Below are positions 13,503-16,610 of a DNA stretch of 64,000 nucleotides, in pieces (the stretch's first letter is position 1; the number at the start of each line of letters is the position of its first letter). The position numbers and the translations under genes were made by a program. Source of the stretch: Pseudomonas sp. AOB-7 (GTDB lineage: Bacteria > Pseudomonadota > Gammaproteobacteria > Pseudomonadales > Pseudomonadaceae); assembly GCF_003696305.1 (NCBI RefSeq), contig NZ_RFFK01000009.1:62001-126000 (forward strand), read 5' to 3'. The notes below the pieces were generated by a model. It did not search any database. It was not told the origin of the DNA and was given only the letters and a program-made list of their open reading frames with translations.

Positions 13503-13928
13503 TCAAATGACCTCGCCTTGCCAGGTCGCCAGCACCCGCCGGGCGCCGCCATGGTCGCGGTGCTCGCCGAGGTAGATGCCCTGCCAGCTGCCCAGCGCTA
13601 GGCGCCCGTTCTGTATCGGCAGCTGCAGCTGACAGCCCAGCAGGCTGGCCTTGAAGTGCGCCGGCAGGTCGTCCGGGCCTTCGTCGTCGTGTTCGTAGCC
13701 GCCCTCACCCTGCGGCACCAGGCGGTTGAAGAAACGCTCGAAATCGCGGCGCACCGCGGGGTCGGCGTTCTCGTTGACGCTCAGCGACGCCGAGGTGTGC
13801 TGCAGCCACAGATGCAACAGACCGACGCGCAGCTGCGCCAGTTCCGGCAAGGCGGCCAGCAGTTCGTCGGTCACCAGGTGGAAACCGCGACTGCGCGGAC
13901 GCAGGCTGACGGTGCGTTGCTGCCACAT
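13503..13928 (-). CDS. YjbQ / UPF0047 family protein (secondary thiamine-phosphate synthase-like)
   Basis: 141 residues, the family length. [18 protein letters not shown], with HTSAS, is the UPF0047 signature, and [13 protein letters not shown]-like [17 protein letters not shown] holds the conserved C-terminal His. E. coli YjbQ has weak thiamine-phosphate synthase activity; the true role is unsettled. It lies upstream of sutA on the same strand with 65 bp between, as in P. aeruginosa. Confidence 0.9.
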
Positions 13929-13986
13929 CCGACTCTCGCTCCCGATGGCTTCAGCGCGCGCATTCTAGCGCGCCGTCAGAAAAAAC

Positions 13987-14010
13987 AAAGGGCGCCCGAA
14001 GGCGCCCTTT
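13987..14010. terminator. Terminator after amtB
   Basis: 10-bp perfect stem AAAGGGCGCC / GGCGCCCTTT with a CGAA tetraloop, 17 bp past the amtB stop in the minus direction and followed there by a T-rich stretch. Confidence 0.85.
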
Positions 14011-14026
14011 GCGATTACCGGGAAAA

Positions 14027-15277
14027 TCACTTGTTGGTGAATTCCGGGTAGGCCTCCATACCGCACTCGGCGATATCCACGCCCTCGTACTCTTCCTCTT
14101 CGCTGACGCGCAGGCCGATCACCGCCTTGATGATGCTCCAGACGATCAGGCTGGCGATGAAGACCCAGGCGAAGATGCTGGCGATACCCAGCAGCTGGGC
14201 GCCCAGCGAGGCGTCGCCGTTGGTCAGGCACACCGCCAATAGGCCCCAGATGCCGACCACGCCGTGCACCGAGATGGCGCCGACCGGGTCGTCGATCTTC
14301 AGCTTGTCCAGGCCGAGGATGGAGAACACCACCAGCACGCCGCCGACGCCGCCGATCAGGGTCGCCTGCAGACCGCTCGGGGTCAGGGGTTCGGCGGTGA
14401 TGGCCACCAGGCCGGCCAGGGCGCCGTTCAGCGCCATGGTCAAGTCGGACTTGCCGAACAGGATGCGCGCCACGATCATCGCCGCGATCAGGCCACCGGC
14501 GGCGGCCATGTTGGTGTTGACGAACACCTGGGCCACGGCGTTGGCGTCTTCGATGGTGCTCATCTTCAGCTGCGAGCCGCCGTTGAAGCCGAACCAGCCC
14601 ATCCACAGGATGAAGGTGCCGAGGGTGGCCAGCGGCAGGTTGCAGCCGGGGATGGCGTTGACCTGGCCACCCGAGCCGTACTTGCCCTTACGCGCACCGA
14701 GCAGCAGCACGCCAGCCAGGGCCGCCGAAGCGCCGGCCATGTGCACCACGCCGGAGCCGGCGAAGTCGAGGAAGCCGGCTTCGTTGAGGAAGCCCGAGCC
14801 CCACTTCCAGAAGCCCTGCACCGGGTAGATGAAACCGGTCATGACCACCGCGAAGGCGAGGAAGGCCCACAGCTTCATGCGCTCGGCCACCGCACCGGAG
14901 ACGATCGACATGCAGGTCGCGGCGAACACCACCTGGAAGAAGAAGTCGGAACGGGCCGAGTAGTAAGGCGCATCGTCGCCACCGGCGAGTACCGAGTCGA
15001 CGCTGTTCTCGTCGCCGATCAAAAAGCCCAGGCTCGGCAGGATGCCGCCTTCCGGGCTGGAGTACATGATGTGGTAGCCGATCACCAGGTACATCACGCT
15101 GGCCACCGCGTACAGGGCGATGTTCTTGGTGAGGATCTCGGTGGTGTTCTTGGCGCGGACCAGGCCGGATTCGAGCATGGCGAAGCCTGCCGCCATCCAC
15201 ATCACCAGGGCACCGCAGATCAGAAAGTAGAAGGTATCGAAGCCGTACTGCAATGCAGTCAATGCTGTGTTGTCCAT
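14027..15277 (-). CDS. amtB: Ammonium transporter (Amt family)
   Basis: 416 residues and about 11 membrane segments. The two pore histidines are likely in VVHMAGASAALAG and SVHGVVGIWGLL. It carries ammonium across the inner membrane and is normally gated by GlnK. It lacks the cleaved signal peptide and the APVLNSGDTAW-type N-terminus of the usual Pseudomonas glnK-linked AmtB. Instead it starts MDNTALTALQYGFDTFYFL, as in the second Amt subtype seen in some Pseudomonas. The start has AAGAGGTG upstream. It lies 324 bp downstream of glnK. Confidence 0.95.
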   Translation of the reverse strand: MDNTALTALQYGFDTFYFLICGALVMWMAAGFAMLESGLVRAKNTTEILTKNIALYAVASVMYLVIGYHIMYSSPEGGILPSLGFLIGDENSVDSVLAGGDDAPYYSARSDFFFQVVFAATCMSIVSGAVAERMKLWAFLAFAVVMTGFIYPVQGFWKWGSGFLNEAGFLDFAGSGVVHMAGASAALAGVLLLGARKGKYGSGGQVNAIPGCNLPLATLGTFILWMGWFGFNGGSQLKMSTIEDANAVAQVFVNTNMAAAGGLIAAMIVARILFGKSDLTMALNGALAGLVAITAEPLTPSGLQATLIGGVGGVLVVFSILGLDKLKIDDPVGAISVHGVVGIWGLLAVCLTNGDASLGAQLLGIASIFAWVFIASLIVWSIIKAVIGLRVSEEEEYEGVDIAECGMEAYPEFTNK

Positions 15278-15355
15278 TTTTCACCTCTTGCCGGCGCTTA
15301 TTGTGCGCTGTTCGGTTAAGACGCCCGGGTTGGCTCCGGACGCGTTCCGTATGCT

Positions 15356-15568
15356 TTACAGGTAGTTGCCACGCTCTATCTGGATCGCTGAACCCCCTGC
15401 ACCGCAAGGCGACCAGGCGTTCCCATCACGGAGCGCGAAACCTGCGAGGGTCAGGCACAGCGGGGCGGCGAGGACTTCGCCGACTCCGGCATTCGTCGTC
15501 GACAGCGGCGCGGGACCGCCAATCGAGGGCAAAAGGGCTCCTAGCCCTGCGAAAGTTCGCAGAGTCAT
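15356..15568 (-). pseudogene. Probable relic of a first amtB gene (signal-peptide end only)
   Basis: A 70-codon reading frame with a strong AGGAG ribosome site starts MTLRTFAGLGALLPSI. From memory this closely resembles the signal peptide of the typical Pseudomonas AmtB (MTLRK.AGLGALLSLV). After about 16 residues the similarity ends; the rest (GGPAPLSTTNAGVGEV...RGNYL) has no Amt features and no membrane segment. It sits 34 bp after glnK, where amtB normally starts. The best reading is a deletion scar of an ancestral amtB1, leaving its translation start. A functional leader peptide is an alternative. Confidence 0.5.
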
Positions 15569-15601
15569 GGGTTTACTCCTGGGGCGTGGGGTTCGGAGGT
15601 T

Positions 15602-15991
<390 letters not shown>

Positions 15992-16099
15992 TCAAGTCTA
16001 AGCGCAGTGTCTGGCTTTTGTAATGCACCGACCGCCCAGCCTGGCGTGGCCGATACCCACCAACCGCTCCCGACGAAACACTCCCCCGCTCCGTCCGAC

Positions 16100-16120
16100 G
16101 CACCGGTACTGCATCGGTGC
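16100..16120. promoter_or_regulatory. Inverted repeat upstream of glnK
   Basis: GCACCG - 9 bp - CGGTGC, 160-180 bp upstream of the glnK start, the distance expected for an NtrC enhancer. The half-sites resemble NtrC GCACC/GGTGC, but the spacing is wider than the usual 17-bp site. The rest of the 409-bp gap between glnK and ubiK shows no gene. Confidence 0.3.
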
Positions 16121-16349
16121 ATGAGTCGCTAGGCCCTAAGCAGAAAGCTTGCCAGCTCCCATAAAAGCGCCGTGATTCAGGGTTTTACCTGCAGCCTGAT
16201 GCAACCGGGGCGAGGCCGCGGCGGCACTTACGCACAATATTGGTGCGCCATGCGCGCCGGCCGTGCGCAAAAATCGTGCAGCTGACGGGACGACGTCCCG
16301 CCGTCGACCGCGTGCTACACTGCCCGCCGTCTGTACTCGGAACCCGCCC

Positions 16350-16610
16350 ATGCTGCCGCCCAAAGCCCTGCTCGACACCCTCAGTAGCCACGCCTCGCGT
16401 CTGTTCAGCGGCGACAGCCCGCTACCGCGCGCGGAGCTGGAGGCCCAGTTCAAGGCCCTGCTGCAGAGCGGCTTCGGCAAGCTCGAGCTGGTCAGCCGCG
16501 AGGAGTTCGACAGCCAGATGGTGGTATTGGCCCGCACCCGCGCGCGCCTGGAGGCGCTGGAAGCCAAGGTTGCCGAGCTGGAAGCCAAGCTGAACCCACC
16601 CACCGACTGA
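16350..16610 (+). CDS. ubiK: Ubiquinone biosynthesis accessory factor UbiK (BMFP family)
   Basis: 86 residues. The N-terminal amphipathic helix (ALLDTLSSHASRLF) is followed by a C-terminal coiled coil with heptads (ARTRARLEALEAKVAELEAKL), as in the BMFP/YqiC family. E. coli UbiK supports aerobic ubiquinone synthesis with UbiJ and binds membranes. The ATG at 16350 was chosen because the family begins at MLPPK.LLD. It is next to comM, as in other Pseudomonas. Confidence 0.9.
   Translation: MLPPKALLDTLSSHASRLFSGDSPLPRAELEAQFKALLQSGFGKLELVSREEFDSQMVVLARTRARLEALEAKVAELEAKLNPPTD

Follow-up and report, generated by a model that had tools for sequence, protein, structure and literature searches.

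The 70-codon frame between glnK and the ammonium transporter gene amtB2 in Pseudomonas sp. AOB-7 is the remnant of an amtB1 gene that lost about 1.1 kb by deletion, with a protein sequence that is now free and decaying, and with a leader and first 13 codons that are held at the nucleotide level and probably still at work. By alignment to intact relatives it is a remnant whose two ends are homologous to those of amtB1, which sits in the same place as the intact gene, and from which constraint at the level of the protein is gone. The stump is dead and its start probably alive, either as a translation start or as an RNA control site of the glnK-amtB2 messenger. As a gene loss the relic is ordinary, and it is the unchanging start that merits follow-up.

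The relic and its intact counterparts

The window, as the term is used here, is the whole stretch of 64,000 nucleotides that was analysed. On its minus strand the gene order is glnK, the 70-codon frame and the intact amtB2, and the features of the locus are the following:

15602..15940, minus strand: glnK, PII signal protein, the first gene of the operon (PF00543, E 1.7e-33)
15569..15594, minus strand: relic leader (-26 to -1), which contains the ribosome site AGGAG
15356..15568, minus strand: relic frame of 70 codons from the open reading frame reading, starting MTLRTFAGLGALLPSI
15530..15568, minus strand: start block, the ATG with codons 1-13 of the former amtB1
15545..15564, minus strand: predicted 8-pair hairpin, +5 to +24, from the minimum-energy fold
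15535..15547, minus strand: putative second hairpin (GGGCT-AGG-AGCCC) whose loop region contains GGA
15280..15376, minus strand: 3′ end of the former amtB1 and the old amtB1-amtB2 spacer, from blastn and multiple alignment
14027..15277, minus strand: amtB2, intact Amt transporter of another subtype (PF00909, E 7.7e-103)

The first-pass annotation had described the frame as having a strong ribosome site, and this agrees with our reading of the minus strand, in which AGGAG ends 7 nt ahead of the ATG. The frame lies about 80 nt from amtB2, whose protein has the N-terminus MDNTALTALQYGF, and it has no Pfam match. Upstream of glnK, a sigma-54-like site (TGGCAAGCTTTCTGCTT, 16138-16154, minus strand) and an NtrC-like inverted repeat (approximately 16231-16250, minus strand) were seen by eye.

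Among 398 genomes of the same genus, 60 carried the downstream transporter at E ≤ 1e-150, and all 60 loci were read. A full amtB1 gene of 437 or 438 codons stands between glnK and amtB2 in 45 of the 60 loci, and in 15, the window among them, there is only a glnK-amtB2 spacer of 293-346 nt. All 45 full AmtB1 proteins begin MTLR, the majority with MTLRK[IFV]AGLGAL, which bears out the earlier suggestion that the frame starts like the signal peptide of the usual AmtB. The downstream Amt shares 34% identity with AmtB1, in keeping with the proposal that it is an intact transporter of another subtype. The window genome has two Amt genes, the second of them on another contig and each 34% identical to AmtB1, and no amtB1 was found elsewhere in this assembly of 59 contigs, whose completeness the tool puts at 100%. 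The history that had been put forward, a glnK-amtB1-amtB2 operon from which most of amtB1 was deleted, is supported by these results: species with both transporter genes behind glnK are common, and both ends of the lost gene are found in the spacer.

A second sample, of 398 genomes of the family, contained the relic tail at E ≤ 1e-5 in 15 genomes, seven of them new. These seven added genomes and one contig of P. composti (now Ectopseudomonas composti) share the structure of the other relics, and the total stands at 22 genomes plus the P. composti contig, which by eye looks identical to G912. A scan of named genomes with at least 80 loci gave the first stem with GGG in 11 among the matches listed, and P. 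composti was, by eye, the only one of those 11 listed that continues as a relic. In G170 (locus L340), a second amtB1-like gene, 62% identical, was observed at a locus without glnK and with a start that lacks the block; this is a single case.

Both ends of amtB1 were matched in 14 of the 15 short spacers. The match of the window's relic to the 5′ end of full amtB1 genes covers 15530-15599, and its 3′ match to G206 has 87.8% identity over 98 nt (E 2.5e-24). Over the relatives, the blastn matches of the 3′ end span 98-112 nt with E 2.5e-24 to 1.3e-22, and against some other relatives they reach approximately 15388. Judged by these values, the 3′ likeness to amtB1 is far beyond chance. The earlier description of an amtB-like start that turns into unrelated sequence held for the start and needs correcting for the remainder, the last part being the amtB1 3′ end and the old spacer. 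What is missing between the two ends is the middle of the gene, about 1.1 kb. In one 293-nt spacer (G338, locus L183) the 5′ end is retained, with 82% identity over 78 nt (E 6e-15), and no 3′ end of amtB1 is recognisable (best E 7.1); it represents a second kind of stump, a start block without a recognisable amtB1 3′ end.

The best preserved relic, that of G159, has 76 codons and runs in frame through to the old stop, and its 3′ part opens with CTAGTAATGG, as does the C-terminal tail of full genes at about codon 410. Its middle matches codons 41-53 of the G263 amtB1 (the first membrane helix) at 28 of 37 nt, with none of 200 shuffles as good, and the same stretch of G206 at 26 of 37 nt, with 9 of 200 shuffles as good. 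Among 11 full genes, the best match to this middle fell near codons 41-53 in about six, near nt 616-655 in four and elsewhere in one. Global alignments with cheap gaps spread the matches across the whole gene and were left out. Because the match of the middle is weak and split between gene regions, the alignments make the outer ends of the deletion firm and leave the exact 5′ breakpoint unsettled.

Descent and exchange

The genome G159 groups with the full-amtB1 genomes G206 and G263 (99/91 on the glnK+amtB2 tree and 100/100 on the rpoB tree), and two (glnK+amtB2) or three (rpoB) species with a full amtB1 lie inside the main relic clade. The relic needs four changes on the glnK+amtB2 tree, three of which are forced by the starred branches, and five on the rpoB tree (37 of 38 genomes). 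A single deletion passed on by simple descent is rejected as the whole story by the placement of G159 and by the four to five changes required.

The middle of the G159 relic scored 62-84 against the 13 other relics, with a highest shuffled score of 36, and 29-38 against amtB1, with shuffled maxima of 32-43. Because the relics of the window clade and that of G159 share this middle sequence, which is absent from amtB1, they look like one relic lineage. The tree of the 45 amtB1 genes is discordant with the glnK+amtB2 tree, and amtB1 has likely been exchanged between species. Transfer, regain of amtB1 and an old mini-gene are candidates for the spread of the relic, and these trees fix no single number of amtB1 losses.

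Decay of the tail and constancy of the start

In the main set of 13 relics, from which G159 and G338 were left out, the mean pairwise distance fell from 0.114 in the tail (codon 14 to the stop) through 0.042 in the amtB2 spacer to 0.015 in codons 1-13, and the 26-nt leader had 0.000. The variable columns numbered 74 of 179, 13 of 80, 3 of 39 and 0 of 26, respectively, and rose to 105, 27, 4 and 4 after G159 was added. Within the ungapped tail, 11 of 27, 14 of 26 and 9 of 26 columns varied at codon positions 1, 2 and 3, and the gap runs were of 1, 2, 5 and 11 nt. Because the codon positions vary alike and the gap runs are not multiples of three, we regard the tail as being without coding constraint and the 70-codon frame as not being a conserved protein. 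The 15 relics have frames of 60-76 codons with this unconstrained tail, and not the intact, selected frame in the absence of amtB1-bearing species that the first-pass annotation had set against its own history.

The start frame is open for at least 60 codons in 22 of 22 relics, which are related to one another. When the letters of the tail (codons 14-62) were shuffled, the share of frames that stayed open lay between 22% and 43% for the 15 relics and was 43% for the window, and the openness of the frame is by itself not beyond chance. By our reading of the alignments, the start frame has stayed open through about six indels that lie ahead of the TAGTGA site, but deletions are more numerous than insertions, and this is suggestive at most of selection for an open frame. 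At fourfold sites, the mean distances between the 13 relic genomes were 0.283 in amtB2, 0.286 in comM, 0.159 in rpoB and 0.090 in glnK; the relic tail, at 0.114, is less diverged than the first two and nearer to the last two. The block-tail contrast, drawn inside the same relics, is independent of this yardstick.

Block and leader together had 3 variable columns of 65 versus 74 of 179 in the tail (13 relics, P 2.8e-9), and 3 of 65 versus 84 of 180 (P 4.2e-11) once eight more rows, from seven genomes and one named contig, had been added (21 rows). The leader had 0 of 26 columns substituted over the 21 rows, a count that does not include a 1-nt insertion in the leader of G930 and G837. Compared with the amtB2 spacer the excess was slight (3 of 65 versus 13 of 80, P 0.033). 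Four leader columns are changed in G159, and more of the block is changed in G338. According to our reading, the changes in the three variable block columns would each alter an amino acid, and for this reason the constancy of the block does not lie at the level of the protein. The suggestion that the retained start could still be in use gains support, since only the start region resisted change.

In intact amtB1 genes, too, codon usage and third bases indicate that the block is held at the nucleotide level, rare codons included. Over the starts of the 45 full genes, 40 further starts and 15 relics, ATGACTCTGCG, CGCAGGGCT and GCCCT are invariant; 27 of the further starts came from the first search for relatives and 13 from strong DNA matches, and the latter lean towards conservation because they were picked by DNA match. 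Of the fourfold codons in the 45 full genes, 5 of the 9 inside the block have an unchanging third base, as opposed to 7 of the 183 outside it (P = 4e-5). GGA, CTA and CGA, which elsewhere in amtB1 make up 0.7%, 1.2% and 0.7% of the codons for their amino acids, are present in the block of 42, 30 and 29 of the 45 full genes, respectively.

With up to 3 mismatches allowed, the block pattern occurs in its own genome at one exact place and at three others with 3 mismatches. Across the order, 13 of 293 genomes have it, each of them a member of the window's family, Pseudomonadaceae, and every family row in that order-wide listing carries the pattern; the proposed element is found in all Pseudomonadaceae genomes of this one order sample. 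Nine genomes of the genus had no DNA match. Seven of them have glnK, amtB1 and a recognisable block (in G351 with the first stem broken), and two, G227 and G305, have neither amtB1 nor glnK and are for that reason uninformative on the block.

The mean third-base entropy of the first 13 codons of glnK is 0.11 (five fourfold columns) versus 0.75 in the rest of the gene, and that of amtB2 is 0.86 (two columns) versus 0.98. The start of glnK is as conserved as the block and the start of amtB2 is not, which weakens the uniqueness of the block; because the first 13 codons of glnK itself are equally conserved, the block is possibly an ordinary constrained start. A constrained start may be ordinary for this operon, and what stands out is that a dead gene has a start that keeps its constraint. 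Between relic species, the fourfold sites of glnK were observed to differ far less than those of amtB2 (0.090 versus 0.283), with the first 13 codons nearly fixed.

The 8-pair stem at +5 to +24 has a z of -2.05 for 45 nt and of -1.00 and -0.77 with more flank; some relics do not favour it, and a different fold comes out ahead in several starts. The second hairpin has a probability of 0.11 in the window's fold. The hairpins are compatible with the block, weakly and inconsistently predicted, and their covariation is unusable because the block hardly varies. The hallmark of a leader bound by RsmA/CsrA is GGA in a hairpin loop. Codon 10 is GGA in 42 of the 45 full genes, in 37 of the 40 further starts and in 12 of the 15 relics, the relic count being scored at codon position 2, and the loop fold is not strongly predicted; G324 and G084 read GAA in place of GGA, and G338 reads GAC. 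An intrinsic terminator or attenuator at GGGCTAGGAGCCCTTTT was considered and rejected, as a scan of the strand finds none and the T run is not kept. Position 36 is G in 26 of 40 further starts. No Rfam match reached the gathering score of its family, either for four sources or for window 13900-16400, and no regulatory codon run was seen in the relic frame.

Rival readings and a possible role of the retained start

A small gene unrelated to amtB, with a start that merely resembles a signal peptide, would fit the lack of a Pfam match, yet the relic matches amtB1 with its flanks at both ends, in the right order and at the same place, with E down to 2.5e-24; this reading is refuted by the 3′ match, and we give it next to no credence. 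It is very improbable that the frame encodes a working small membrane protein consisting of signal peptide, one membrane helix and tail and needed in some species. In G159 and G276 the frame runs on to the old stop and includes a hydrophobic stretch, as would be expected of such a protein, and the start frame is open for at least 60 codons in all 22 relics; however, the frames vary in content and length, none of the tail's gap runs is divisible by three, the third codon position is no more variable than the first two, and the hydrophobic stretch is lost from the window's copy.

A wholly dead relic, whose start seems conserved through recent loss or through recombination sharing the glnK side, would agree with the small differences at glnK fourfold sites (0.090 versus 0.283 in amtB2 among the 13 relic genomes) and with the clear exchange or regain of amtB1 and relic. 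Nevertheless, the tail lies between block and amtB2 and has the same history, yet its distance is 0.114 compared with 0.015 in the block and 0.000 in the leader, which leaves the block as an island (3 of 65 versus 74 of 179 columns), and we judge this explanation unlikely.

Remnants of internal deletions keep both ends of a gene, lack its middle and have a drifting tail. The relic shows the same pattern, but its start region varies far less than the remainder of the stump. Bacterial operons can have translated leaders, short frames with a good ribosome site that precede a gene under their possible control. The relic shares the short frame and the ribosome site, but here these come from a dead gene, about 80 nt from amtB2.

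According to the available part of PMC8443478, in P. stutzeri A1501 glnK shares a transcript with both amtB1 and amtB2, and this glnK-amtB1-amtB2 operon has the gene order of the full relatives, whereas amtB1 is cut to a 70-codon stump here. For the same strain, the accessible portion of PMC11332353 reports that Hfq eCLIP gives a peak at the amtB 5′UTR, and amtB and glnK levels that are about twofold higher without hfq, with the amtB concerned unspecified in both cases. This 5′UTR would correspond to the place of the block in intact operons, but Hfq binding is reported there for the A1501 amtB only, and the likeness of the relic is by analogy. The relic and the start block were not described in the titles and abstract starts surveyed; the available parts of PMC8249394 and PMC6606865 yielded nothing on the start block, and a term search of PMC11882435 gave no occurrences.

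We favour a remnant whose start is probably still at work, although the entire glnK-to-amtB2 stretch is less diverged than the fourfold sites of amtB2 or comM, which speaks against it. A deletion took the middle of amtB1 from a former glnK-amtB1-amtB2 operon and left the start and the last codons. In the mechanism proposed, the relic start of the glnK-amtB2 messenger may still engage ribosomes, and possibly also Hfq or another RNA regulator of that kind. Translation of the short frame, whatever its sequence, would keep the spacer covered and could tune either the amount of messenger that reaches amtB2 or the stability of the glnK part.

The usual partner of GlnK is AmtB, and in relic species GlnK sits beside another Amt subtype. 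Tentatively, the start of amtB1 may have outlived its gene as a nucleotide-level control element of the glnK-amtB messenger, acting on glnK or on the next transporter and hence not being lost with amtB1. Relics of gene loss are common; the one described here amounts to a natural experiment that separates the constraint on the AmtB1 protein from the constraint on the start of its messenger, and it singles out about 65 nt of the glnK-amtB messenger as probably important in their own right.
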